Shown one piece after another: positions 1,579 to 58,285 of a DNA stretch of 64,000 nucleotides. A program made the position numbers and the translations under genes. The notes beneath the pieces were generated by a model. That model was not told where the DNA came from. It made no database searches and saw nothing but the letters and a program-made list of their open reading frames with translations. This stretch comes from Aureococcus anophagefferens (Eukaryota > Sar > Pelagophyceae > Pelagomonadales > Pelagomonadaceae): the NCBI RefSeq assembly GCF_000186865.1, contig NW_008705566.1:728432-792431 (forward strand). The letters run 5' to 3'. Each line of letters starts with the position of its first letter. Positions within the stretch are counted from its first letter, which is position 1.

Positions 1579-4094
1579 AACGGCGCGCGCGTCGGCTCCG
1601 GCGACGGCCGGTGCAAGGACGCGCGCGCGTGTCCCACGGCCGTCGACGACGTGGCGATCTTCGCGAGGAGGAGCGACACGAGGCCGACGATGAGCAGGGC
1701 TTCCACGCCGCTCTGGAGGCGCTTGGGCGCCTGGGAGACGGCGCGGCGCCGGAAGTGTGAAGGCACGAACTGCTGCTCGCTCCGGTGGCCGAAGGCGTTC
1801 GAGACGTGCTCGTGCTCGAGGCGGAAGCAGGACCAGGCGCTGCGCCGCGCGAGCTCCGCGAGCGATAGGAGGGGCACGAAGAAGTCCGGCACGATGGCGT
1901 CGATGCGCCGCGACGTGTCCGAGGGCGGGAGGATCTGCGCGAGCCAGACGAAGCGGCCCACGGAGTCCGCCGCGGCCGCGCAGCGGTACCACCAGGCCGC
2001 CGGGTAGAGGCGCCGCGGCCGCGACAGGACCTCGCCGTCGGCGTAGGGCGCGAGCCCCCAGTCCACGAAGACGTCCCAGCACCACGAATAGAGCGACGAC
2101 CCGACGAAGACGGCGAACCAGAACGGCTGGGCCGCGAAGACGGAGCCGCCGCCGCCGCCGCCGACGTTGAGCGCGGAGAAGAGGCTCACGAAGAGTGATA
2201 GCGCGTACTTGGTCGCGTTCGCGAGCTGGAGCCAGCGCCGCGGCGACGCGCCGCTGTCGTTGTACTTGCGCAGGCACTGGAGGAAGCGCCAGAGCACGGG
2301 CAGGAGGCAGACCGCGGGCGTGAGCACGCGCGTCGCGAACCGCGACCGCGCCCACGTCGGCGAAAAGACCGCGTCGTCCTCGCTCGCGGCCGCCGCGACG
2401 ACGTCGCCGGAGAGGAAGAAGCATAACGTCCAGAGCACGTCGAGGAGCACCTTCACCATGCTCGTGAGCACGTCGGCCACGAAGGTGTCGACGAAGCGCA
2501 CCTCGCGGAAGGGCGCCAGGACGACGCGGCCGAGCGCGGCCCAGAGCTGGCGCCGCCGCTTCCAGGGGAAGACCAGGCGCCACGCGCCGAAGATCGCGGC
2601 CGCCAACGGGACGCCCGCCGCGAGCCGCGGCGCCGAGCGCCGGCCCGGGACGCCGTACGCGTAGGTGGATTTGTAGTAGATCAGGAGCAGCGCGAGGAGC
2701 ACGACGGTCTCGACGGACGCCTCCGCGTAGACGTCGAGGTGCGTCGCCGCGACCCGCGGGTCCGCGTCGAAGAGGAACTCGACGTTGACGCGGTAGCGCG
2801 CCCAGACGTGGAGCGACGCCCCCCAGAGCCAGTGCCAGGCGAGGAGGCAGCCGAGCCCGCGGAACACGGGCCAGGCCGGCGCCGCGGCGACGGACCGCCG
2901 CCAGCCGTCGACGTCCGCGCCGGACGCGACGACCTCGAAGCAGTCCCAGAGCAGCCAGGCGGCCAAGACGGCCGCGGCGCCGCAGCGGTAGCCGAGGCGC
3001 AGCGCGTCCGCGTCGTAGCCGCCGTGCGTCGTGTGGAGGACGACGTGGTCGTCGCGGAGCCCGCGCTCGGCGATGGCCTCGTCGCCGTCGTAGAACGCGG
3101 CCGCGTAGGACGCCTTGACGTCGTCCGCGAGCGCGCGGGCCTTGGCGGCGGACCAGCAGTCGCGGTGGCGCACGCCCTCGCAGAAGCGCTCGCGGATCTT
3201 CGGCTCGCGCTTCAGGAGCTTGTCGCGCTTCTTCGTGATTTTGACGAACGCGCTGTAGTTCCAGACCGTGTAATCGACCTGCGTTCGAGGCGGTCGCGCG
3301 TGGCCCGGCGGCGGCGGAAGCGCGGCGGCGCGTCCCGGTCACCTTTTCCCAAAACATCGCGGGACGCCGCCCGCGACGAGCTTCCGCGCGTCGAAGTCGA
3401 GCTGGGCCAGGGCCCGCTTCAGCGACTCGCGCGACGCGCGGTCCGTGGGCTCGGCGTCGGCCGTCGACGCGCGGCGCCGCGGCCCGCCCGGCTCGTCGGC
3501 CGCGACGGCCGCGTAGGACCCGCGGGAGCCGCGCCGCGGCGCGGCGACGTGCTCGCGGAGGTGGTGGGCCCAGCGCTCCTCGAGGAGCGCGAGCTCGCGC
3601 GTGTAGTGCCGCTGCACCTTGCGCAGCTCGGCGACGCACGCGACGTCGAAGCCGGCGGCCAGGACGTCGTAGGCGTCGCCCGGCGCGGGCGAGAAGAGCC
3701 AGCGCGTCCAGTGGCACGCGCCGCCGTCCTCCTCCTCGCCCGCCGCGAGCAGCAGCGCCAGCGACGGCGCGGAGCCCGCGAGGACGCCGAGCGAACCGAG
3801 CGCCGTCGCGCTCGCGGGCCGCGGGAGCCGAGGCGCGGCGTCGCAGTCGAGGACCGCGAAGAGCCGGCGCCGCGCCTCGCTTCCGAGGTGGGGCGCAAGG
3901 ACCGGCGTCGGCTCGAGCAGGCCGAAACCGCCGTCGATGTCGAAATTGCTGGCGCCGCAGGGCGCGTTGGCATTCGGCCGCTCGGCGGCGCGCACGATGA
4001 GTCGCAGGAGCAGCTTGAGCCGGTCGTAGTCGACGTAATACGCCGCCCACTCCGACTGCTTCGCGTCCTCGAGGCGCTCCGCGAACTTGACCAT
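1575..4094 (-). CDS. SPX-EXS domain phosphate transporter (XPR1/PHO1 family), two exons
   Basis: Family members export phosphate and sense inositol pyrophosphates through SPX. Exon 1 (4094-3378) starts MVKFAERLEDAKQSEWAAYY, the classic SPX N-terminus with the YDRLKLLL helix. Exon 2 (3278-1575) opens with VDYTVWNYSAFVKITKKRDK, the Lys-rich SPX C-terminal helix, then a multi-membrane EXS domain (FLQCLRKYNDSG, SWCWDVFVDWGL, HVSNAFGHRSEQQFVPSHFR). I infer a phase-0 intron (3279-3377): joining ..DFDARKL to VDYTVWNYSAF gives the family spacing without a gap. The product would be 806 residues. The donor, GTCGCG, is weak, so the exact donor is less certain than the gene. The start lies 187 bp from the divergent start at 4282. 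Confidence 0.9.
3279..3377 (-). other. Inferred 99-nt spliceosomal intron in the SPX-EXS gene
   Basis: In gene sense the intron runs from GTCGCGGGCGGC to CGAACGCAG, followed by exon GTCGATTAC. It was placed because it restores the SPX helix NYSAFVKITKKRDK at the correct spacing. Alternative in-frame donors exist a few codons downstream (GGC|GTCCCG). The first four bases of the intron and of exon 2 match (GTCG), so a decayed target duplication is possible but not demonstrable. Confidence 0.6.
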
Positions 4095-14352: not shown

Positions 14353-16890
14353 TTACGCGTCGCTCGCGTCGGGCGTCCAGGGGCTCAGGGGCGCGGACTC
14401 GGGCCGCGACGAGCGGAGGCTCTCCGTGAGCGCCGTCTTCGCGGGCTTCTTGCGCCGGTTCTCCGAGGCCGTCGCGATGGCGCGGTGCCGCGCCTCGTGC
14501 GCCTGCTCGTGCTCGGCCGCGGGGCTCTTCCAGGACATGCGGTGCTTGTGGAGCGCGACGCCCGGCGGGACGAGGGGCGGCTGGTGGTTCGCGCCGGGGA
14601 ACGCGGGGATCGCGTGGGGCCCCTCGTCGCCGCCGGACGCGTCGCCGTCGCGGGGGATCGGCGCGAGCTTCTGCGAGTTGTGGAAGCTCTGGTGGCGCGA
14701 CGGCGTCTGCTTGCGGTAGGTCGCCTTGGGCGAGGCCTGGTCGGGCGTGCCCGCGGAGAGGCGGCGCCGGTTGTGCTGCTTCGGCGACGCGCCGCCCGCG
14801 TCCTTGAGCTTGTTGAGGTCCTCGTTCTCCAGGATGTGCTTCCGGAGCTGGATGATGAGCACCTCGAGCTTCTGGGCCGTCTCCGCGCTGCGCTGGGCCA
14901 TGCCCTCGCTGTGGATGATGCGCTCGGCGAGGGAGCCGATGGTGAGCGACAGCGCGGTCACGGACGACGCGACGTTGTCGACGTGGAACGTCGTGGCCTT
15001 GTCCTCGACGACGTCCATGTCCGCCTTCTTCATGAGGGCCTCCGTCGTCGCTTTCGTGCGCTCGAGGTCGCTGAGCTTGAAGCCCGTCTCCTCCGTGACG
15101 CGCTGCAGGTCCTCCGCGATGACGTCGACCTTGTCGAGCGTCGGCGCGAGGAACTCGCGGACCGCGCCGATGTTGTCGATGTTGAGCTGCTGGAACATGC
15201 GCCGGAGGCTCTCGATCTGCTGGGACACGGACGTGATGCGCTCCTGCTCGTTCTCGAGGCGCGCGTTCAGGTGCTCCGCGCCCTCGTTCAGATCCGCGAA
15301 CGCCTTCTCGTTGCGGCTCTCGTCGTTCGCGACGCGGTACTCGAGCCGCTTCTCGCTCGACTCGATGCGGTTGCGGTTGTTCGTGATGCCCGTCTCGTAG
15401 ACCCGGAGCTGCGACTTCTCGGCCTTGCCCGCCTCGATGCCCGACACGCGGCGGAGGATCGCGAGCACCGCGTCGGCGACGATCGTCTCCGGGAAGGACT
15501 CGACGACGACGGGCTCGTCGTCGGCGTCGTCGCCGTCGTCGTCGAAGAGCCCCGTGGAGTGCCAGATGGACGTCGGGCACGTGTTCGTCTTGATGAGCAC
15601 CCGGGGCTCGTCCGGGTCCGCGTCGCCGTCCGCGGCCGCCGGCGCGGGCGCGCCCGCGGCGCCGCCGCCGTCGAGGCCGCCCTCGAGCACGTGCCCGAGC
15701 ACGTTGGCGACGTCGCGGGCGAGGCCCGTCTTCTCCGGCGCCGTCGGCTTCGGCGGCTCCGGCGGCGGCGCCTCGACGGACTTGGCCTTCGGCGGGCCGT
15801 AGAAGTCGTCCGCGGCGCGCGGGATCGCGGGGATGGACGACGCGCGCCGCAGGCCGCCGGGCGTCGCGATGACGGACTTGCGCCGCACCTCCTCCTCCCG
15901 CGAGCTGCCCTCGGACGCCGCGTCGAGCTGGAGGCCGTGCTGCACCGCGAGGCTCTCGCCGCCGCACGAGCCCACGCGGCTCAGGCGGTGGAGCAGCGAC
16001 GCCTTCGAGGCCGTTTCGAAGTCGGGAAAGTCGTGGTCGCCGGACACGAAGGAGCTCCGCAGCTCCCGGGCGCCCTCGCGGTCGCCCTCGGCGGCCCGGC
16101 GCGCGGCCTCGTCGATCATGACCGCGGCCGCGATGCGGTTCGACAGCTTCGCGAGCGCGCGGTGCACGGGCGCCGCGCGCCGGTCCGCGGCGTCGATGCG
16201 CCGCGAGTCGCGCTTGATGCGCGCGACGACCTCCGTGAGCCACTCGTCGAGCTGCGACGCGAACGTCTCGATGTCCTCGCAGCGGCGGTCGAAGAGCGTC
16301 TCCGCGCGCGCCGCGCGCCGCTCCGCGCGCTCCGCCCGCTTCTCCAGCGCGACCAGACGCTCGTTGATCGACGCGAGCACGCTAATCTGCTCCTCGACGA
16401 CGCCGACGCGCGTCTCGCCGACGGCCTGCGCGGCCTCGGCCGCGTCGAGCCTCAGCCGCGCGTCGACGAGCTCGGCCTTCGGGCCCGCGACGCCCTCGGC
16501 GACGATGGCCGCCTGGCCGTCCTGGATCTCCTCGACGACGCTGTCGCGCATGTGGGCGATCTCGTCGCCCCAGCCCTTGACGTGCTCGCTCATGCGGCCC
16601 TCGAACGCGCGCTCGAGCGTCCACACCGTCTTCATGTCGCGCGCGAGGCGCTCGCAGGACCGCTCGCACTTGCCGACGCGGCCCTCGACCTCGCTCGAAA
16701 CCGTCATCTCGTCGTCCCGCAAACACTCTAAATTCTGCGTCGCCCCGTAGGACCGGTTCGCCACGGACCCGACGTCCTCGAGGGCCGACACCACGCTACC
16801 GTCGTCGGCCTCGCTCTCCCACTCCACGGCGACGAGGCCCGACGCGCGCTCCTCCGGCGTCATCGGCCGCAGGTCGAAGTGCATCCCCAT
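14353..16890 (-). CDS. Coiled-coil protein, paralogue A of a pair
   Basis: 845 residues, predominantly helical. It shares colinear blocks with the gene at 18300-21293: MKTVWTLERAFEGRM, KRDSRRIDAADRRAAPVHRA, LAKLSNRIAAAVMIDEAARR, ESFPETIVADAVLAILRRVS, VHVDN-type helices near ASSVTALSLTIGSLAERIIH, and a C-terminal RPESAPLSPW. An Ala/Pro/Gly-rich disordered stretch lies near residue 400. No catalytic motif is seen. A structural cytoskeletal or basal-body role is plausible but unsupported beyond architecture. Its start is 131 bp from the divergent PPX1/Prune gene. Confidence 0.75.
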   Translation of the reverse strand: MGMHFDLRPMTPEERASGLVAVEWESEADDGSVVSALEDVGSVANRSYGATQNLECLRDDEMTVSSEVEGRVGKCERSCERLARDMKTVWTLERAFEGRMSEHVKGWGDEIAHMRDSVVEEIQDGQAAIVAEGVAGPKAELVDARLRLDAAEAAQAVGETRVGVVEEQISVLASINERLVALEKRAERAERRAARAETLFDRRCEDIETFASQLDEWLTEVVARIKRDSRRIDAADRRAAPVHRALAKLSNRIAAAVMIDEAARRAAEGDREGARELRSSFVSGDHDFPDFETASKASLLHRLSRVGSCGGESLAVQHGLQLDAASEGSSREEEVRRKSVIATPGGLRRASSIPAIPRAADDFYGPPKAKSVEAPPPEPPKPTAPEKTGLARDVANVLGHVLEGGLDGGGAAGAPAPAAADGDADPDEPRVLIKTNTCPTSIWHSTGLFDDDGDDADDEPVVVESFPETIVADAVLAILRRVSGIEAGKAEKSQLRVYETGITNNRNRIESSEKRLEYRVANDESRNEKAFADLNEGAEHLNARLENEQERITSVSQQIESLRRMFQQLNIDNIGAVREFLAPTLDKVDVIAEDLQRVTEETGFKLSDLERTKATTEALMKKADMDVVEDKATTFHVDNVASSVTALSLTIGSLAERIIHSEGMAQRSAETAQKLEVLIIQLRKHILENEDLNKLKDAGGASPKQHNRRRLSAGTPDQASPKATYRKQTPSRHQSFHNSQKLAPIPRDGDASGGDEGPHAIPAFPGANHQPPLVPPGVALHKHRMSWKSPAAEHEQAHEARHRAIATASENRRKKPAKTALTESLRSSRPESAPLSPWTPDASDA

Positions 16891-18299: not shown

Positions 18300-21293
18300 T
18301 TAGAGCCGGCCGTGGCTCGGCGCGTGGCGGAGCCCGCCGCTGGACTTGCCCTTCTGGAGCTTGTTGTGGTTCGCCCAGGGCGACGGCGCGCTCTTGGGCC
18401 GGTGCTCGAGGACGCCCGACGCGAGGGACGGCTTGTGGCGCCGGCCGCCGGGCCCCGCGCTCAGGAGCCGCTCGGCCTTGGCGCTCTCGTCGTGCTCCGC
18501 GCCGGGGCCCTGCGGGTTGATCCAGGACTTGCGGTGCTCGTTGAGCACCTCGCGCTCGCGCACGGTCATGGCGTTGGACTTGCGCCCCCCGGGGAAGGAG
18601 GGGAAGGAGTGGACGCTGTCGTCGGCGCCGCGCGAGCCGAACTGCGGCGACCCCGGCGGCGACGACCGCGTCGAGTCGTCGCCGCGGGCCGGGCCCGCCT
18701 TGTCGATGGGCGTGAGGTTGCGCGGCTTGTGGCCCCGGTGGGGCTTCGGCGGCCAGGGCTCGTTCTCGTCGACGGGCTCGTTCTCGTCGACCTCGATTCT
18801 ACCCGTGGGCAGCGCCGCCATGCGCTTGCGGAGCTCGATGATCAGCGCCTCGAGCTTCTCCACGGTCGCGTTGCCGCGCTTGGCCATCTTCTCCGCCGTG
18901 ACGACGCGGTCGCTCAGGGAGCCGATGGTCAGGGACATGGTCGTCACGGACGCGGCGACGGTGTCGACCTGGACGCGCGACGCCTTCGTGTCCATGTCGA
19001 CGATGTCCGCCTTCTCGTTCATGGCCGCGTTCGTCGCCTTCTGGAACTCCATCTTCATGAACTGCTCGTTCGTCTTGCGCCGCAAATCCGTGAGGCCCGT
19101 CGACGTGTTCTGGACCTCCTCGAGCGTCGGCGCGAGATAGTCGCGGACCGCGTGGAGCGCGTCGTTGTTGATGCGGCCGACCTCGGACTTGAGCGTCTCG
19201 TGCTGGAGGCTCATGTCGCGGATGCGCTCGCCCTGGCTCTCGGCGACGGCGCTCCCGTGGTCGCCCGCCTCGCGGAGCTCGACGACGTCCGCGAGCGTCT
19301 TCTTCTCGTGCGACGCCAGCCGCGTCTCGAGCTTGCGCTCCGCGGCCTCCGTGCGCGAGCGGTTGTTGGAGATGCCCATCTCCAGCACGCGGAGCTGGCT
19401 CGACTCGGCCTTGCCCCGCTCGAGCGCCGCGACGCGGCGGAGGATCGCCAAAATGCTGTCGGCGATGATCGTCTCGGGGAACTGCTCGACCTCGACGTCG
19501 ACGTCGTCGTCGTCCTCGACCTCCTCGAGGATCGACGCCGCGCGGACCAGCGCCGGCGGGGGCGCCGGCGCGGCGGCCGCCGCGGGCCCGGGCACCGCGG
19601 CCTCGGGCACGGCGCCCGCGGCGCGCGCGCCCCCGGCGAGCGCCGCGGCCTCGGCCACGGACGGCGCCGCGACGACCTTGTCCTCGGGGGGCGTCGCCGA
19701 CGCCGGCGCCTCGGCAACGGCGGGGTCGTCGCGGCGCGGCGCGGCGGCCGGCGCCGGCGACGCGCCCGCGCGGCGCTCGCGGACGACGCCGAGGCCCGGC
19801 GGCGGGCCCCGGCTCCGCCGCAGCGTCGACCGGCGGCCGCCGCGCATGGACTCGCGGCGCAGGGACGTGCGCCGGGGCGCGTCCGCGCGGCGCTTCGACT
19901 CCTCCGACGCCGCGTCGAGGCGCAGGCCGTAGGTCATGGCGAGCGTCTCGCCGCCGCCGGAGCCGACGCGGCTCAGGCGGTGGAGCAGGCTCTCGCGGCG
20001 GCTCGACCCGCCGCGCGCGGTCGGCGCGGTCGGCGCCGCGTCGGGCTCGCCGCTCTCCTCGTCGACGATGGTCGTCTCCGCCGTCGCGAAGGACGAGCTC
20101 AGCTCCTTGGCGCCGTCGGCGTCGCCGCGCGCGGCCCGGTTCGCCGCGTCGTCGATCATCACCGCGGCGGCGATGCGGTTCGACAGCTTCGCCAGGGCGC
20201 TGTGGACGGGCTGGGCCCGCGCGTCGGCGGCGTCGATGCGCCGGCTGTCGTGGTTCGCCTTCTTCGCGAGCTCGCGGAGCCACGCGTCCATCGTCCGCCG
20301 CTGGCGCTCGAGCTGGCCGAACTGGCGGTCGCAGAGCGCCTCGGCGCGGTCCGCGCGGTCCTCGGCGCGGGACGCGCGGCGCTCGAGGGCGCACACGCGC
20401 GACCGGAGCGCCTCGAGGCCGCCGACGCGCCGCTCGAGCTCCGCGGCGCGGCGCGCCTCGTCCGCGACGCCGCCCTCGACGCCCGCGAGGCGCCGCGTCG
20501 CGTCGTCGAGCTTGCCCTGCGTCTGCTCGAGGGCGCCCTCGACGGCGGCGGCCTGGCCCGCGCGGATCTCGTCGACGACGCCGTCGCGCATGTTCGCGAT
20601 GTCCTCGGACCAGCCCCGGCACTCGTCGGCCATGCGCGCCTCGAAGGCCCGCTCGAGCGACCACACGGTCTTCACGTCGCGCCGCAGGCGCACGCAGCCC
20701 CGCTCCAGCGCGTCGACGCGCAGGGGCACGTCGCCGTCGGCCAAGTCGTCCTCGCCGTCGAAGGCGCCGCCCGCGACGCGTTTCGCGAACGCTTTCTCGA
20801 GCTCGACGGGCGCGCCGCGCGACACGCTCGTCGGCGTCGCGTGCGAGTCCTCGTCGTCCTCGAGGGCCGAGATGTAGCTGTCGAGGCGGCCGCCGCTGAG
20901 CAGCGCCGGCGCCGGGGCCGCCGCGGCCTCGATGGGCGTCAGAGCGCCGTCGGCCGGCGTCATCGCGGGCTCGGCGGGCGTCGCCGGCGGCGACGGCGCC
21001 TCGAGCGCCACGGCCTGCTCGAGCGCCTGCTTGAGCATCTCCATGGTCTCACGGAGTCGTGCGTTCCGGCCCGGCCGCTCACGGAGGTCGGGGAGAACGC
21101 TGCCCAGCCATCGTTGATAGCGCGCTAATTCAACGTCTTCACCGCGACCTGCACGGCAGACTATTTCTTTGGTAAAATAGACGGTAGCAAGAGCGGTAGC
21201 GCTGATCGACGCCCTGTCCGCGTCGAGCGTCGAGGAACTCGCGGGGGCGGGCGGCGTCGCGCCGTGACCGCGTCGGCGCGCCGCCGAGACCAT
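18300..21293 (-). CDS. Coiled-coil protein, paralogue B of a pair
   Basis: 997 residues from the ATG at 21293. An ATG at 21044 (MEMLKQALEQAVALE, 915 residues) is a credible alternative because 21120-21200 is AT-richer than the coding body and may be leader. Blocks match paralogue A in order: VKTVWSLERAFEARM, NHDSRRIDAADARAQPVHSA, LAKLSNRIAAAVMIDDAANR, EQFPETIIADSILAILRRVA, ASVTTMSLTIGSLSDRVVTA, and a C-terminal RPKSAPSPW. Divergence is strongest in the Ala/Pro-rich linkers. The function is unknown to me. If 21293 is the start, it sits 11 bp from the divergent ATG at 21305. Confidence 0.75.
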   Translation of the reverse strand: MVSAARRRGHGATPPAPASSSTLDADRASISATALATVYFTKEIVCRAGRGEDVELARYQRWLGSVLPDLRERPGRNARLRETMEMLKQALEQAVALEAPSPPATPAEPAMTPADGALTPIEAAAAPAPALLSGGRLDSYISALEDDEDSHATPTSVSRGAPVELEKAFAKRVAGGAFDGEDDLADGDVPLRVDALERGCVRLRRDVKTVWSLERAFEARMADECRGWSEDIANMRDGVVDEIRAGQAAAVEGALEQTQGKLDDATRRLAGVEGGVADEARRAAELERRVGGLEALRSRVCALERRASRAEDRADRAEALCDRQFGQLERQRRTMDAWLRELAKKANHDSRRIDAADARAQPVHSALAKLSNRIAAAVMIDDAANRAARGDADGAKELSSSFATAETTIVDEESGEPDAAPTAPTARGGSSRRESLLHRLSRVGSGGGETLAMTYGLRLDAASEESKRRADAPRRTSLRRESMRGGRRSTLRRSRGPPPGLGVVRERRAGASPAPAAAPRRDDPAVAEAPASATPPEDKVVAAPSVAEAAALAGGARAAGAVPEAAVPGPAAAAAPAPPPALVRAASILEEVEDDDDVDVEVEQFPETIIADSILAILRRVAALERGKAESSQLRVLEMGISNNRSRTEAAERKLETRLASHEKKTLADVVELREAGDHGSAVAESQGERIRDMSLQHETLKSEVGRINNDALHAVRDYLAPTLEEVQNTSTGLTDLRRKTNEQFMKMEFQKATNAAMNEKADIVDMDTKASRVQVDTVAASVTTMSLTIGSLSDRVVTAEKMAKRGNATVEKLEALIIELRKRMAALPTGRIEVDENEPVDENEPWPPKPHRGHKPRNLTPIDKAGPARGDDSTRSSPPGSPQFGSRGADDSVHSFPSFPGGRKSNAMTVREREVLNEHRKSWINPQGPGAEHDESAKAERLLSAGPGGRRHKPSLASGVLEHRPKSAPSPWANHNKLQKGKSSGGLRHAPSHGRL

Positions 21294-24719: not shown

Positions 24720-26740
24720 TCAGCTCCGCGAGCGCGAGCGGGACAGCGACGCGCCGCGCGCGAGCTCGTACTCGAGCTCGAGCGTGGAGACGGCGCCGTA
24801 GGCCTGGCGGCCGCCCGGGAGCGTGAGCTCCCGGAAGACGTCCTCGGGCGTGCGGCCGAACGTCTCCGGGAGCACCGCGAGGACGAAGACGAGCGCGGCG
24901 ACGAGGACGGCGGCGAAGGGGAGGAACGCGTAGGCGCCGAGCGTCGCGTTGAGCACGGGGAAGCCCAGCCCCACGAGGATGTTCATGCACCAGTTCAACT
25001 GCGACGCCATCGCCTGCGCCGGGACGACCTGCGCCGTCGTGAAGAGCTCGGGCACGATCATCCAGGGGATGGGCCCCAACCCGAGCTCGAAGAAGAAGAC
25101 GTAGAGGATGACGCCGACGAGGGCCCAGGCGTTGGACAACAGGCCCTGGAGCGCGAGCGTCAACACCGCCGCGCTCACGAGCATGCCGCCGATCGAGAGC
25201 GCGAGCATGGTCACGCGGCGCTGGCCGTCCATCAAGGACGAAGCCAACATGGTCGCGACGACGTTCACGAGGCCGACGAGCGCCGTGCCCAGGGCCGGGT
25301 TCGGGATGACGCCGTCGAGGAACGTCGTCGAGTAGTAAAAGACCGCGTTGATGCCGCTGAGCTGCTGCGTCGCGTGGAGCACGAAGGTCGACGCGAAGAG
25401 CACGCGCCGCGCCCGCGCGGCGACGGCCGCGCGGTCGCCGCCCGTCGCCTCCTCGCGGCGCCGCAGCGACCCGCGGTCCGCGTCGGGCGTCGCGGGGTCC
25501 TCGTCGCGCGCGACCGCCGCGGCCGCGGCGGCGATGCAGTGCGCCTCGTCGCGCGCCGACTCGTCGTCCAACGCGTACAAGCGCTTGCAGAGCTCGACGG
25601 CCTCGACCCAGTCCTCGGACGTGTCGTCGACGTCGCCGTACGTGTTCCGCGGCGCGCGGCCCACGGCCAAGACGCTCTTCGGCGTCGCCGCGAGGGGCAG
25701 CGCCCCGGCCAGCAAGAGCATGGCCAGCGCCACGAGCGCCGACGCGGCGAACAACACGCCCGCGCCGGCGCCCAACGCCACGACGTCCGCGGCGAGGATG
25801 CCCACGACCATCGCCAGCTGCGTCAACGTCCCGAACGCGCCCCGGAGCCGCGGCGGCGCGAGCTCGCCCAAGTACACGGGCACGACGACCGTCGTCGCGC
25901 CGCAGGCGACGCCCAGGAGCAAGCGCGCCCCGATGACGACGTCGATGCGCTGCAGCTCCAGGCCCCAGCAGAGCGCGATGCCCCCGAGGCCGTATAAAGC
26001 GCCGATGGACCAGAGCGCGCCGTCGCGGCCCAGGCGCCCGTCCGCCGCGCAGCCGCCGACCCAGGACCCGAAGGGCCCGCCCACGGGCAGCGCCGACACG
26101 GCCACGGACCACGCGAAGGACCCGTGGCCCGGCAGCGCCGTCGCCTCGGCCGCGTTCATGACCGACCTGGGCAGCAAAAGGGTGCGAAATTCCCAACTTC
26201 AAAGGCTCCTATCTCGGTCGTTTTCCGCTCGTTTCGGCTGATTTTTGGACGAGCGATCATCTCTCGGAGCGCTCTCGAAGCGTGGGTGCTGTTTCCGAAA
26301 CGCGCGCGCGCGGAACACTCACGTTGAATCGACGTTGAATCACCCTTTTCCTGCCCTGTGACCGACGTGTGGTAGCCGTTGAGGAACGACGCGAAGGCCG
26401 CCACGCAGAGGCAGCCGCCCAGCAGCGACGTCACCTTGAGCTTGGACTCCAAACTCTCCAACTCGTCGTAGAGCTCGTTGGCGTGCTCCAGCGACTTGGC
26501 CAAAAGGTTCACGGACGACACGCGCCGGAACTGCGCGGCGGACCCGTGCGGCGTCGCGAGCGCGCCGGAGATGTAGGTCGCCACGCGGATGCCGTGCACC
26601 TCGCCCTTGACGCTCGACGACCCCTCGCCGCTGCGCCAGTCCTCGTAGGACTGGCGGTAGCTCGGCCGCCGCTCGCGGGCCGGCTGCACCGTGTCGAAGT
26701 TGATCGGCGACACGACGTGCTGCGCCGGGGACGAGTCCAT
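24720..26740 (-). CDS. MFS sugar-porter family transporter, two exons split by an introner
   Basis: Exon 1 is 26740-26367 and exon 2 is 26166-24720, a phase-2 junction giving 606 residues. It is a sugar-porter type facilitator or symporter. Exon 1 holds a long cytosolic N-terminus and helix 1, ending FLNGYHT; exon 2 continues SVMNAAEATALP, so the junction recreates the 'GYxTxVxNxxE' helix-1/loop signature. Other family marks are ARLLLGVACGATTVVVPVYL followed by GELAPPRLRG (the PVYxxE-AP--RG motif), an LSGINAVFYYSTTFLDGVIP helix 7, and LPETFGRTPEDVFREL at the end. The unusually long N-terminal tail (about 105 residues) is Ser/Arg-rich. It is divergent from PRP5, with 216 bp between starts. Confidence 0.9.
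26167..26358 (+). mobile_element. Introner family A, copy 1 (192 nt), antisense to its host gene
   Basis: Plus strand ends are CTGGGCAGCAAAAGGGTG and CACCCTTTTCCTGCCCTG: terminal inverted repeats of about 16 bp with one internal mismatch. It is flanked by the 8-bp duplication TGACCGAC (26159-26166 and 26359-26366; GTCGGTCA in gene sense). The transporter is on the minus strand, so the element is transcribed in reverse and spliced as a 200-nt GT-AG intron (26167-26366): GT from the duplication, AG from the element end GCTGCCCAG. It differs from the copy at 29317-29508 at 16 of 192 positions by my count, with no gaps. Confidence 0.93.
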
Positions 26741-26956
26741 GGTCGGTGGTCGTCAGGAAGGTGCCGAGCGGCGTCTCGTCGGCAAGGGTTGAGGTCCAGC
26801 CGTGTCGGTGCACGCCTTGTCGAGCAGCAGCCTGTACGCGTCGCCGGCCGCGGACTGCGGCAAGGCCTCGGACAAAAAATCTTTGGAGCTCGCCGCGATG
26901 GTGCGGCGGCACTAGCGCGTGTTTATAGAAGAGCTGCCCGCGTAGAAAACTTTGCC
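26741..26956. promoter_or_regulatory. Bidirectional promoter region between sugar transporter and PRP5
   Basis: 216 bp separates the two divergent start codons (26740 minus, 26957 plus). It must hold both promoters and leaders. I see no canonical TATA box; an AT-richer stretch (GACAAAAAATCTTTGGAGCT, about 26872-26891) lies in the PRP5-proximal part. Confidence 0.4.
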
Positions 26957-29900
26957 ATGGGCCGCGATCGAGACAAGGACCGCCGGCGCCGGCGGCGCGA
27001 CGACGACAGCGACGACAGCCGCGACCGGAGCCGGCGCAAGGAGCACAAGCGCGACCGGCACCGGCGCGACCGGTCGAGCTCGCGCGACCGCAAGCGGCGG
27101 CGCGACGAGTACGGCGTGCCCGTGAGCGAGGGCTGGGTGTCCATGGAGCACGAGGCGCGGCTCAAGGAGATGAGCGCGGCGCCGGCGCCGGCGCCGCGGC
27201 CGCGGAGCCCGTCGCCGCCGCGGCGCGACCGGAACGGCGGCGGCGGCGGCGACGAGTCGGCGACCCAGGCCGCGGCCATGGCGGCCATGATCTCCGCGCG
27301 GCTCAAGGCCAACGCGCCCAAGAGCGCCGAGGAGCTCGAGGCCGAGAAGAAGCTCGAGCGCGAGCGCGACGCCAAGGCCGTCGAGGACGAGGCGAACGCG
27401 CGGCGCGAGCGCGTCGCCGCGTGGCAGGCGGCCCAGGGCAAGGCGTCGGGCGCCGGCGCCGCCGGCGGGCCCGGCGGGCCGACGTGGACCCTCGAGGACG
27501 AGGGCGAGGCGGACGACGACGACGAGCTATTGGCGGAGTTCGACACGGGCGACGCGGCCGCCGCGGCCGCGCCCGCGCCCGCGGCCGCCGTGAGCTCCCT
27601 CAAGGGCGCCGCGGCGGCGGAGCTGCGGAAGAAGCGCCTCGAGAAGAAGCGCGACGCGACGGCGGCGGCCGCGGAGAAGGCCGCGCCGTTCCTCGCGCCC
27701 GCGCCCGCGCCCGCGGCGGCCGCGGCCGCGGCCGCGCCCGCGGCGGACCCCCTCGAGGGCTTCCTCGCGTCCTTCTCGAGCGGCGCGCCGTCGGACCCCC
27801 TCGACACGTTCCTCACGTCGCTCGACGGCTCCGGCGCGACGTCGCCCGCGCGCAGCGACCGGAGCGAGGGCGCGCGGATCATGGACGCGGTCGAGGACGG
27901 CGACCGGGGCTACGTGAACCCGCACGCGACGAACACGATCACCATGGAGGAGATCCTCAAGGGCGCGAAGCCGCCCGACGGCGGCTGGGAGAGCAACTAC
28001 GAGTCCGAGAGCGACTCCGAGGCCGCGGGGCCCGCGGCGCCCGGGGGCGCGGCCGCGTCGGAGAAATCGGGCACGGGCTCCTGGCGCGCCTTCGCCGCGC
28101 TGCACAAGGACGAGGACAGCGACGACGAGCCGCCGGACGTCATGTCGACGTCCGAGCGCGTGCGCCTGGCCAAGGAGGACGCGGCCAAGGCCGCGGAGGC
28201 GGAAAAGCGCGAGAAGAAGGAGCTCGGCCGCTGCTTCGCCGACGACGGCGACGTCATGGAGGAGGGCGAGCGGCGCCGGGCCGAGCGGTCCGCCCTCGAG
28301 GTCTTCGCGGAGCAGCTCAAGAAGAAGGAACTAAAACCCGTGGACCACGCGCGCGAGAACTACGTGAAGATCCGGAAGAACTTCTACGTCGTGCCCCGCG
28401 CTTTGGGCGCTTTGAGCGCCGCGGACGTCGCGCTGCGGCGCGACGCCGACGAGATCAAGGTCCGGGGCAAGGGCTGCCCGCCGCCCATCGAGACCTGGGG
28501 CCAGTGCGGCCTGCCGGACAAGGCGCACGGCGCGCTCGTCAAGGCCTTCGGGGACCACACGGAGCCCTTCCCCATCCAGAAGCAGGCCCTGCCCGCGCTC
28601 ATGAGCGGCCGCGACGTCATCGGCATCGCGAAGACGGGCTCCGGGAAGACGCTGGCCTTCGTGCTCCCGCTGCTGCGCCACATCATGGACCAGCCGCCGA
28701 TCGTCGACGGCGGCGACGGCCCCGTGGCGCTGATCCTGGCGCCGGCGCGGGAGCTCGCGCTCCAGATCTGGCGCGAGGCGAAGCGCTTCGCGAACCCGCT
28801 GGGCCTGCGGGCCATCGCGGTCTACGGCGGCGCCAAGGTCGCGGACCAGATCGCGGACCTGAAGCGCGGCGCGGAGATCGTCGTCGCGACGCCGGGCCGC
28901 CTCATCGACATCCTCACCATGTCCCAGGGGCGCTTGATCGGGTTGCGGCGCGTGTCCTACGTCGTCCTCGACGAGGCGGACCGCATGTTCGACATGGGCT
29001 TCGAGCCGCAGATCGCGATGATCCTGCGGAACGCGCGGCCCGACCGGCAGACGGCGCTCTTCTCGGCGACGTTCCCCCGGGCCGTGGAGCAGCTCGCGCG
29101 CAAGGCGCTCTCCTATCCGCTGGAGATCGTCGCCGGCGGGCGGTCCGTCGCCGCGGACACCGTCGACCAGTACGTCGAGCTCCGCGCCGAGGGCACCAAG
29201 TTCATGCGCCTGCTCCAATTGCTGGGCCACTGGTTCGAGCGGGGGTCCGTGTTGATCTTCGTCGACACGCAGCTCAAGTGCGACTCCATCTACGAGCAGC
29301 TCATGAAGGCGGGCTACAGGGCAGCAAAAGAGAGCGAAATTCCCAACTTCAAAGGCTCCGATCTCGGCCATTTTCCACTCGTTTCGGCTGATTTTTGGAC
29401 GAGCGATCATCTCTCGGAACGGTCTCGAAGCGTGGATGCTTTTTCCGGAACGCGCGCGCGCGGAACACTCACGTTGAAGCGACGTTGAATCACCCTTGTG
29501 CTGCCCAGGCGGGCTACCCGGCGCTGTCGCTCCACGGCGGCAAGGACCAGGCGGACCGCGACGGCACCATCTCGGACTTCAAGAGCGGCGTCGCGACGGT
29601 GCTCGTGGCGACGTCCGTCGCGGGCCGCGGCCTGGACGTGCCGTCCATCGTCTGCGTCGTCAACTACTCCGCGCCGAACCACCTCGAGGACTACGTGCAC
29701 CGCGTCGGCCGCACGGGCCGCGCGGGCCGCGCGGGCACGGCCTACACGTTCCTCGACCCCGTCAACGAGGACGCCTACGCGCCCATCCTCCACAAGGCGC
29801 TGAAGCAGGCGAAGATGGCCATCCCGCCGGAGCTCGCGGAGCTCTCGAAGAAGTTCGCGACGGCCGCCGCCGCGGGCGAGAAGCAGTGGGCGTCGTCGGG

Positions 29901-30948
29901 CTACGCGGGCCGGGGCTACAAGTTCGACGACGACGAGCTCGACGGCGAGAAGGCGGCGGCGCGGGACCAGCGCAAGGCCATGGAGGCCGAGATGGGGCTC
30001 CACGACCCGGACCTCCGCGACGACGACGACGACGGCGGCGACGCCGAGGCCGAGGCGAAGAACGCGGCCGCGCGCGCGGCGCTCGCCGCCGAGGCCGCGG
30101 CGCCGGACGCGACGGCCCTCGCGACGGCGCCGGCGCCCGGCGCCGCGGCCGCGGTCATGCTCGCGGCCGCGGGCGTCGCGCCCGCGCCGGGCGCGGTCGC
30201 CAGGGCCGCGCCGCCGCTCCTCGGCGCGCTCCCGAGGGAGGGCGTCGTGCCCAACGCCGTCGCCCGGGCGCCCATCGAGGCCCAGATGGCCATGGCCGGC
30301 GTCGTGCCCGGCCTCGCGCAGGCGTCGAGCGCCAAGGAGATGAAGGGCATGTCGCCGCTCGAGCGCGCGAAGCTTTTGGCGGCGCAGTTCGGCCGGGGCC
30401 AGCAGGCCGGCGGCGGCGGCGCCTTCGCGGCGCTCGCCGCCGCCGCGAGGCCCGCGGGGGGCGCCGCCCAGCCCCTGGACTCGCTCCAGTCGCCGCAGCA
30501 CGCCGCGCTCGCGCGCGCGCGGGCGCTCGCGGCGCAGATGGGCGGCGCCGCGCCGCCGGTGCTCCAGCCCGCGGCGCCGGCGGCCATCCCCGTGCTCGGC
30601 GGCGTCCAGACGCTGCCGGGCGGCCACTGCTACGACGAGCTCGACGTCAACGACTACCCGGGCGAGGCGCGCTACCGCGCGACGCACCGCGACAACATCC
30701 TCCGCGTCCAGGAGGAGACGGGCTGCGCGATCATCGCCCGGGGCCAGTACATCGCGCCGGGCAAGGCGCCGGAGCCGGGCCAGAAGCGCCTCTACCTCGC
30801 CCTCGAGGCCAAGGACGAGCTCTCCATCAAGCACGCCAAGGCCGAGTTGAAGCGCCTCCTCGACGAGGAGACGCGCGAGCTCGCGACGTCCGGCGGCAAG
30901 CGCGGCCGCGACGCCATGGCCAACTACGGCAAGTACAGCCTGATCTAG
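26957..30948 (+). CDS. PRP5: DEAD-box pre-mRNA splicing helicase PRP5/DDX46, two exons split by an introner
   Basis: Exon 1 is 26957-29308 and exon 2 is 29509-30948, giving 1263 residues. PRP5 acts at U2 snRNP during branch-site recognition. The N-terminus is an Arg/Asp/Ser-rich RS-like region (MGRDRDKDRRRRRR..). The helicase core has AKTGSGKT near residue 560, PARELALQ, VVATPGRLID, DEADRMFDMGFEPQ near 670, SATFPR, then across the splice QLMK|AGYPALSLHGGKDQADRD, VATSVAGRGLD and HRVGRTGRAGRAG. ALKRGAE-type and 'GYAGRGYKFDDDE' elements match DDX46. The C-terminus has the KH-like END region (ELDVNDYPGEARYRATHRDN). The intron (29309-29508) is phase 0 with a GC donor. Splicing machinery itself thus depends on removing an introner. 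Confidence 0.95.
29317..29508 (+). mobile_element. Introner family A, copy 2 (192 nt), sense to PRP5
   Basis: The element runs from CAGGGCAGCAAAAGAG to CACCCTTGTGCTGCCCAG. It is flanked by the 8-bp duplication GCGGGCTA (29309-29316 and 29509-29516). The intron is 29309-29508 (200 nt), a GC-AG intron: the GC donor is the start of the left duplication and the AG is the element's own end. Removal restores ATGAAG|GCGGGCTAC, in frame, inside helicase domain 2. Same length and same genomic orientation as the copy 3 kb away in the transporter gene. The interior contains the tandem ACGTTGAAGCGACGTTGAAT. Confidence 0.95.
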
Positions 30949-57832: not shown

Positions 57833-58136
57833 CGACGGCGGTAGCAGGCACACGACGACGTTGGTCGCTGTCGTCGGCTGTGGCACCCATGGCGGCGGCG
57901 AGGCAGCGCACGACGACAGAAACGCCGCCGTCGCGTGCGCCAATGCGGGGCAGCCCCGGAGTTGCATGGGACGCGGAAGGTATGCGACAGCGTGCCGACG
58001 CACTGGAAGCGCTGGAAGGGCGTCACATGCAAGGACGTCGATGCAAAACACCGTTTCCGCGCTCAGACGCTGCCTCCGCACTCCTGCTGATAGTGTGTCT
58101 TGGGACGAGCATTGGACATTGATGGTGCCGTGCAGA

Positions 58137-58190
58137 TCTTTTGTTAAACGCGTCGAATCTTTTGTTAAACGCGTCGATTCTTTTGTCCGT
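58137..58190 (+). repeat. 21-bp tandem repeat, about 2.5 copies
   Basis: The unit ATCTTTTGTTAAACGCGTCG(A) occurs at 58137-58157 and 58158-58178, followed by a partial copy TTCTTTTGT. It lies in the gene-poor stretch before the SDR gene end (58286). Confidence 0.85.
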
Positions 58191-58285
58191 CGCCTAACAT
58201 AGAATAGCTGCCGTGTTCCAAAAAAGCCATGACATTGTTCCACTGCGCAGAGTTTCCTTCGTCTTACGCTCCTTCGCTGCCGCAC

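Follow-up and report, generated by a model that had tools for sequence, protein, structure and literature searches.

How two nearly identical 192-bp sequences came to lie within the coding regions of two adjacent genes, and how both proteins could stay intact, is the question raised by this locus of Aureococcus anophagefferens, which we analysed in a window comprising the whole stretch of DNA under study (64,000 nucleotides). With a probability of about 0.93, both sequences (copies A and B, Table 1) are insertions of a single short non-autonomous DNA transposon (MITE) that makes introns on insertion. Introner introns are already known in A. anophagefferens and the window comes from this very species, whose introners the sequence-only reading had named as background, so the discovery of introners itself is not new; what the copies show is how one element can serve as an intron on either strand.

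Two introner copies in adjacent genes

A recount confirms that the two elements are 192 bp long each, differ from one another at 16 positions and are flanked by different exact 8-bp direct repeats, TGACCGAC for copy A and GCGGGCTA for copy B, as the sequence-only reading had described them. Its claim of inverted ends is borne out as well, with 16 of the outer 20 bases in A and 14 of 20 in B matching the reverse-complemented opposite end, and so is its claim that removal restores conserved motifs: taking out each copy with one repeat (200 nt) gives GYHTSVMNAAE in the sugar porter and QLMKAGYPALSLHGG in the DDX46/PRP5-like helicase. Without removal, both copies are out of frame and the reading frames meet a stop at codon 195 (A) and codon 844 (B). 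A search with a profile of 89 copies finds A and B as the only copies in the window at E-values up to 10.

The two copies have the same orientation in the DNA, their host genes lie on opposite strands and both of their ends differ, an arrangement on which the earlier reading had not remarked. An RNA hairpin was set aside as evidence, as folding shows no consistent excess stability across the two elements (z -2.26 for A, z +1.01 for B); the end stem leaves the AG unpaired in both.

Table 1. Features of the two introner-bearing genes, in window coordinates
Feature	Position	Strand	Remarks
Sugar-porter exon 2 with stop	24720..26166	-	Sugar_tr PF00083
Single 8-mer GTTCCTCG, putative empty target site	25316..25323	-	Sugar-porter gene; from P0124 protein letters
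Target duplication copy TGACCGAC	26159..26166	+	Minus strand GTCGGTCA = first 8 bases of porter exon 2
Predicted GT-AG intron, 200 nt, sugar-porter gene	26167..26366	-	Element + one target copy
Introner copy A	26167..26358	+	192 bp, ends CTGGGCAG...CTGCCCTG; R type, acceptor AG on minus strand
Target duplication copy TGACCGAC	26359..26366	+	Minus strand GTCGGTCA gives GT donor
Sugar-porter exon 1	26367..26740	-	Start codon at 26740
DDX46/PRP5-like helicase exon 1	26957..29308	+	DEAD PF00270
Target duplication copy GCGGGCTA	29309..29316	+	Gives GC donor
Predicted GC-AG intron, 200 nt, DDX46/PRP5-like helicase	29309..29508	+	Element + one target copy
Introner copy B	29317..29508	+	192 bp, ends CAGGGCAG...CTGCCCAG; S type, acceptor AG on plus strand
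DDX46/PRP5-like helicase exon 2 with stop	29509..30948	+	
Target duplication copy GCGGGCTA	29509..29516	+	First 8 bases of helicase exon 2

Homologues P0007, P0008, P0122, P0123 and P0125 read through the junctions with no insert. The exactly joined products are carried by P0121 (605/606 residues identical to the joined porter) and P0002 (958/963 compared residues identical to the joined helicase), both from 'ena' contigs, which could represent transcripts or alleles lacking the intron. Copies A and B are not spliced exactly in any of the five named gene models of A. anophagefferens that were compared: P0001, P0003 and P0004 retain 21 introner-coded residues, and P0005 and P0126 leave out genuine exon sequence. 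The presence of introner-coded residues in database helicase models of A. anophagefferens is a matter for annotation. The porter gene also bears on the proposal that orthologous loci be compared for empty sites: P0124, an allele of this gene from a metagenome, appears to have an R-type introner where the window holds a single 8-mer (Table 1), one putative filled/empty pair read from protein letters.

A genome-wide family with two mirror forms

The whole-genome search, likewise proposed beforehand, recovers 1,314 or more copies that have exact ends and an acceptor in the A. anophagefferens genome (49.05 Mb), i.e., ~1.7 per 64 kb, which makes the pair ordinary for this genome; of the earlier claim that a recent family is active in this locus, the family is thus real, but it is not special to the locus. 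The strict copies fall into four end classes (CA..AG 1,084, CG..AG 183, CC..AG 33 and CT..AG 14), with 0 matches for the backwards-pattern controls in all six end-class searches. Acceptor-less ends, searched genome-wide, gave 0 copies of CA..TG and otherwise 2 matches of odd length. Of 1,316 strict copies, 1,314 retain the acceptor base, whereas its mirror position at the opposite end carries a base other than A in 230 of 1,314, a sign of splicing constraint. The 29-base end pattern has 0 exact matches in viral_contigs and genome_contigs, collections that may leave out near relatives.

The sample drew on 90 loci, namely the 30 that matched A best, the 30 that matched B best and the first 30 of a further match list; it held 103 copies, 100 of them typeable as S or R. 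Old copies are under-represented in it, since the loci were picked mainly as best matches to A or B. Pfam searches of both predicted exons covered 20 frame-consistent loci, taken in list order from the 76 passing a length filter and skipping the window genes (L031 and L001): ten gave a match, to various families, and ten gave none. The same or an adjoining family is found on both sides in L032, L036, L041, L004 and L009, some of these matches lying below Pfam's cut-off, unrelated domains lie on the two sides of L042, and L033, L005, L007 and L012 match on one side only.

As judged from its sequences, the family is made up of two mirror forms, S (CA...AG, predicted to be spliced forward) and R (CT...TG, predicted to be spliced in reverse). 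Pairing of the inverted ends was counted in 97 sampled copies (>90% identity, N-free, >=180 bp): base 1 and bases 3-8 pair in 95-97 of them and base 2 in none, a mismatch owing to which just one of the two ends bears the acceptor AG. The S and R interiors are near-identical on opposite strands (15 consensus differences), and the tree of copies needs 5 switches between the two forms. The CT..AG class was considered as a bidirectional ancestor or intermediate and dropped; such an ancestor is not claimed because the class counts above, read as a spectrum of A, G, C and T at that base, fit mutational decay from A. Four of its 14 copies were read, with a gene strand that is S-like in L093 and L094, R-like with a weak score in L095, and probably R-like in L096, which has a 9-bp duplication and no consistent frame in the 8-bp test.

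Donor, strand and frame

Duplicated 8-mers with at most two mismatches flank 94 of the 100 typed copies (77 perfectly), and donors were tallied in these 94, excluding the six typed copies with more than two mismatches. The first donor base is G in 94/94 and the second is C in 51, T in 42 and A in 1, the opposite end of the target 8-mer being without such constraint; an acceptor in the element thus faces a G-Y donor in the target copy in 93/94. According to a codon model applied to the 98 typed copies with enough flank, the gene lies on the acceptor-matching strand in 97 (S 56/56 sense, R 41/42 antisense). The 200-nt removal restores the frame in 93/98 (90/98 with both flank scores positive), as compared with 2/98 at each of the shifted offsets -2, -1, +1 and +2, which upholds the earlier identification of the elements as introner introns of DNA-transposon kind; the baseline at 3,865 random window positions is 0.77, or 0.71 with both scores positive. 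The frame is not restored in L025, L038, L060, L079 and L082, and at most 5 of the 98 sampled copies look non-coding.

According to the mechanism that we propose, insertion would double 8 bp of coding sequence, which would have to start with GT or GC when read on the strand that shows CCCAG at the end of the element; the spliceosome would use this G-Y, in the first target copy, for its donor and the terminal AG of the element for its acceptor, so that 8 + 192 = 200 nt would be spliced out and the mRNA left unaltered. A copy would be S or R depending on the inverted-repeat end that bears the acceptor. We infer that these copies are spliced in RNA, as their sequences suggest, and purifying selection would be the filter on them, the near-absence of copies with the acceptor on the wrong strand for the gene being most simply explained by a broken gene. 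This filter does not fully account for the rarity of non-coding copies, since random insertion followed by selection predicts ~75% non-coding survivors.

Few or no non-coding copies are found even at 98-99% likeness, which would be expected if a transposase preferring AG|GY targets and sensing the coding strand, instead of selection for splicing, set the G-Y and strand rules; PMC9860276 points the same way, reporting introners to be enriched in genes in 161 of 175 introner genomes. However, a target motif alone cannot yield the 97/98 agreement with the coding strand, and retention of the acceptor base beside a variable mirrored base also argues against such a substitution, which we consider unlikely; transposase targeting and selection for splicing may act together.

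The strand agreement and the scarcity of non-coding-looking copies would also be predicted, without any selection, if a spliced introner were reverse-spliced into a transcript and then copied back, giving copies that are always genic and sense, as fungal introners are interpreted in PMC9860276. We hold this to be very improbable here: the 8-bp duplications and inverted ends, both lacking in RNA-propagated introners of the fungal type, are marks of DNA transposition, and spread through RNA would give copies of one strand only, yet the S and R interiors mirror one another across strands and the tree has its repeated switches. Finally, A and B might be ordinary gene-disrupting MITE insertions, unspliced and with conserved motifs arising by coincidence, as the five named models that do not splice them exactly would allow. 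We consider this extremely improbable, since each copy lies out of frame and introduces stop codons, exactly joined products exist (P0121, P0002), and the tallies of frame (93/98), strand (97/98) and donor G (94/94) speak against it.

Searches for a mobilising transposase

Transposons of the hAT superfamily have 8-bp target duplications and CAGGG-type ends. The Aureococcus introners resemble hAT-superfamily MITEs in the 8-bp duplication and in one CAGGG end, which suggest a hAT-like transposase, but differ from them in the other end, which is CTGGG on its own strand and holds the acceptor-making base; CAGGG at both ends is not found, as CA..TG has 0 copies genome-wide and base 2 pairs in 0/97. 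A genome search with PF05699 gave four matches just over Pfam's cut-off, on C1, C6, C8 and C13, of which those on C1 and C13 were inspected. These two share a stretch that is near-identical for ~1,050 bp (97.5% over 1.4 kb) and is followed by repeats, and inspection by eye of the ~1.4 kb downstream of the C1 copy showed no introner-type end. The inverted-end pattern with a next base that is neither C nor A occurs at 15 places in the genome (backwards control 1), none of them shown to be autonomous, at least one, C1:2003308, being an ordinary mutated copy from the CA..AG list. Neither the two inspected PF05699 matches nor the end-motif search of the genome yielded a transposase with introner ends.

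GC-AG introns and known introner systems

In PMC3033335, GC-AG introns are given as 39.6% of A. anophagefferens and 22.2% of M. pusilla introns and termed an enigma. Among the coding GC and GT dinucleotides of the window, 77% are GC, and against this background the 51 GC and 42 GT donors mean that GT is favoured only ~2.8-fold (our own arithmetic). Introner donors offer an explanation for these enigmatic introns, such donors, with GT only weakly preferred, being a simple and testable candidate source for them in A. anophagefferens and perhaps in M. pusilla. More generally, the family represents bulk intron birth from a recognisable transposon, with its donor, acceptor and strand rule legible in the sequence. 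A wider reading is tentative, and we would sooner bet against it than for it: one family would make introns on both strands, switched by base 2 of its inverted repeat and with several changes of strand, the confinement of almost all copies to coding exons in a spliceable orientation would reflect insertion or survival coupled to transcription or splicing, beyond a filter of gene damage, and donors sampled from GC-rich coding DNA would be the source of the unexplained GC-AG introns here and perhaps in Micromonas pusilla too.

The family has the traits of introners, namely numerous introns of nearly identical sequence spread over unrelated genes in a single genome (1,314 strict copies; various Pfam families), duplication and inverted ends, a split origin of the splice sites, and a frame kept on removal. 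Introner elements of DNA-transposon type were reportedly described in A. anophagefferens by Huff, Zilberman & Roy in 2016 (Nature 538:533); they are reported to be likewise short DNA transposons with inverted ends and a target duplication, one splice site being in the element and the other from the duplicated target, and the mRNA being unchanged on removal. Mirror strand forms with a base-2 mismatch and the end tally were not met in the available parts of the literature searched, and Huff 2016 may contain both. PMC9481584, citing Huff 2016, gives a characteristic length near 210 bp for A. anophagefferens introners, and the ~210 bp introns of Pelagomonas calceolata described there have a length peak close to that of element plus duplication. 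The introner families of PMC9860276 (Gozashti et al. 2022) likewise have TSDs, TIRs and gene enrichment, with up to 50.0% GC donors (51/94 here), insertion between nucleosomes is reported for A. anophagefferens, and the Symbiodinium example likewise has its acceptor in the element and its donor from the duplication. In contrast, family 4 of an Aureococcus sp. (Tara MAG) in the same source has both splice sites in the element and lengthens the transcript by 12 nt, whereas the introners described here supply the acceptor only and add nothing to the transcript.

The introner pair, its joined products and a putative empty site

Both elements singled out in the sequence-only reading are, exactly as described there, 192 bp long with 16 differences between them, each flanked by its 8-bp target duplication, and these elements, copies A and B, are the window's sole matches to a profile made from 89 copies (Table). 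Copy B is of the S form (ends CA...AG, spliced in the element's forward direction) and shares the plus strand with its DDX46/PRP5-like helicase gene, while copy A has the same orientation, yet sits in a sugar-porter gene coded by the minus strand, i.e., it is of the R form (ends CT...TG, spliced in reverse). Of the joined products, the porter agrees with the database protein P0121 (606 aa) at 605/606 residues and the helicase with P0002 at 958 of the 963 residues compared, P0121 and P0002 both being of 'ena' source (RNA or intron-free DNA). Relatives have no insert at the junctions, with GYHTSVMN in P0122, P0123 and P0125 and AGYACLSLHGG and AGYASLALHGG in P0007 and P0008.

Helicase residues 480-784 are 100% identical to the annotated A. 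anophagefferens proteins P0001 and P0003, which places the window in this species; P0001, P0003 and P0004 retain 21 residues coded by copy B (RAAKESEIPNFKGSDLGHFPL). As the contigs of these three proteins differ in length from the window's, other A. anophagefferens assemblies most likely contain copy B too. Real exon sequence is lost from the annotated helicase P0005 and also from the porter model P0126, which contains a wrong join; introner introns with GC donors may be mis-annotated species-wide.

The proposed comparison with empty sites yields one putative pair. In P0124, a JGI metagenome protein with 99% identity over 55% of the query, a translated R-type introner follows TTFL, then a different frame, and the residues are compatible with the duplication GTTCCTCG, which occurs once at the matching place in the window. 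We infer a filled (P0124) and an empty (window) site from the protein letters.

Table. Coordinates of introner copies and other features (window positions unless a contig or locus is named)
Feature	Position	Description
Copy A	26167-26358	R; predicted GT-AG intron 26167-26366
Copy B	29317-29508	S; predicted GC-AG intron 29309-29508
Putative empty site	25316-25323	minus strand
Tandem repeat	590-769	36-bp unit, four copies in register
Repeat pair 1	14834-15055 / 18820-19041	~4 kb apart, 71% identity; with pair 2, probably a tandem gene duplication
Repeat pair 2	16047-16215 / 20087-20255	~4 kb apart, 79% identity
GC dips	36701, 56651, 58076-58275	0.43-0.47 (150-bp windows) vs 72% overall; no introner; may mark other introns or intergenic stretches
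Gene pair (L091, L092)	G000:C1:943300-944733, C13:599554-600987	97.5% identical over 1.4 kb; weak hAT dimerisation domain; adjoins repeat-rich sequence
CT..AG copy	L096:171-362	9-bp, not 8-bp, target duplication (GTCGACGAA); GT donor
Relatives	L007:2495-2686, L016:1857-2040, L071:2010-2202	85-90% identity to query, CGGGGCGGG-like ends, CCCAG acceptor retained; probably a diverged subfamily of greater age

Copy number and two mirror forms

The whole-genome search that had been suggested, run on an assembly of 49,050,692 bases in 86 contigs, gives 1,314 strict copies with an acceptor (pattern for both ends, 155-185 bases between): 1,084 with CA..AG ends, 183 with CG..AG, 33 with CC..AG and 14 with CT..AG (20 matches, 6 copies having matched on both strands). 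Genome-wide, CA..TG ends, with the acceptor on neither strand, occur in no strict copy, and the wider class lacking an acceptor at either end has two matches, 202 and 207 bases long; backwards-pattern controls gave 0 in all six end-class searches. Similarity searches named 1,795 and 2,053 candidates at first look, 40 of each being scored. With ~1.7 strict copies expected per 64 kb, two in the window are average, and the family, which had been claimed to be active in this locus, is not specially so.

Among 103 copies sampled from 90 loci, 100 could be typed as 56 S (AG at the end, start not CT: 49 CA, 5 CG, 2 otherwise) and 44 R (CT at the start, end not AG: 40 TG, 4 CG). Pairing across the inverted repeat, scored in the 97 copies whose ends are complete, occurs in 95-97 at bases 1 and 3-8, in 80 at base 9 and in 82 at base 11, but in none at base 2, the mismatch there being A with A in 50/53 S and T with T in 40/44 R; genome-wide, base 2 does pair in the 14 strict CT..AG copies. 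Base 2 decides the strand on which the element ends in AG. Because the acceptor base and its mirrored base belong to the same inverted repeat, the mirrored base provides an internal control: the acceptor is retained in 1,314/1,316 strict copies, whereas the mirrored base is not A in 230/1,314.

The forms may also have switched. A tree of element interiors, ends excluded (101 rows: 55 S, 44 R, 2 untyped), requires five S/R changes (4-6 in bootstraps), at least two of them forced by well-supported branches. Bootstrap values had yet to converge, with weak support for most inner branches (6/82 starred). The interior of the S copy L085 is shared without a difference by 13 R copies, and by eye an R interior occurs in 31 of the first 100 listed CA..AG places.

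Gene strand, reading frame and donor

Both flanks of 98 typed copies were scored with a codon model that was first trained on the two host genes of the window and then widened to the window's ORFs (third-position GC 0.95). The acceptor strand is the gene strand in 56/56 S and 41/42 R copies, and removal of exactly 200 nt leaves the flanks in a shared frame in 93/98 (90/98 with both scores positive; exceptions L025, L038, L060, L079 and L082), against 2/98 at each of the offsets -2, -1, +1 and +2 and a baseline of 0.77 (0.71 requiring positive scores on both flanks) for 3,865 random positions in the window. Independent support comes from Pfam, applied to both predicted exons at 20 loci on the predicted strand only: the same or adjoining families flank L032 (both sides below cut-off), L036, L041 and L004 (one side each below) and L009, while L042 has unrelated domains, L033, L005, L007 (below cut-off) and L012 match on one side only, and neither exon matches at the other 10.

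In 94 copies with target copies at most two mismatches apart (77 perfect), the first donor base, in gene sense, is always G and the second is C in 51, T in 42 and A in 1. The opposite end of the target 8-mer carries no comparable rule, so the bias is no symmetric target preference. The GC share of GC+GT is 0.77 in window coding ORFs vs 0.55 at introner donors, so that GT is favoured ~2.8-fold and GC widely accepted.

Relation to known introners

Enrichment of introners in genes is already reported in PMC9860276. Random insertion followed by selection, if 0.23 of positions are taken as non-coding (window test) and ~10% of coding positions as acceptable (right strand, G-Y), predicts 75% non-coding survivors, or 53% with the genome 90% coding, figures that rest on one window's coding density and samples of young copies; at most 5/98 are seen, a scarcity this model leaves unexplained. 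Searches of this genome did not find a mobilising transposase. The mirror forms and base-2 rule are not described in the available sections of PMC9860276, PMC7789003, PMC9481584, PMC3033335, PMC3488318 and PMC11237714, which is weak evidence as the main paper, Huff 2016, falls outside that scope. PMC3033335 gives the share of GC-AG introns as 39.6% for A. anophagefferens and 22.2% for M. pusilla and calls their origin an enigma; introner donors drawn from GC-rich coding DNA would explain their source.
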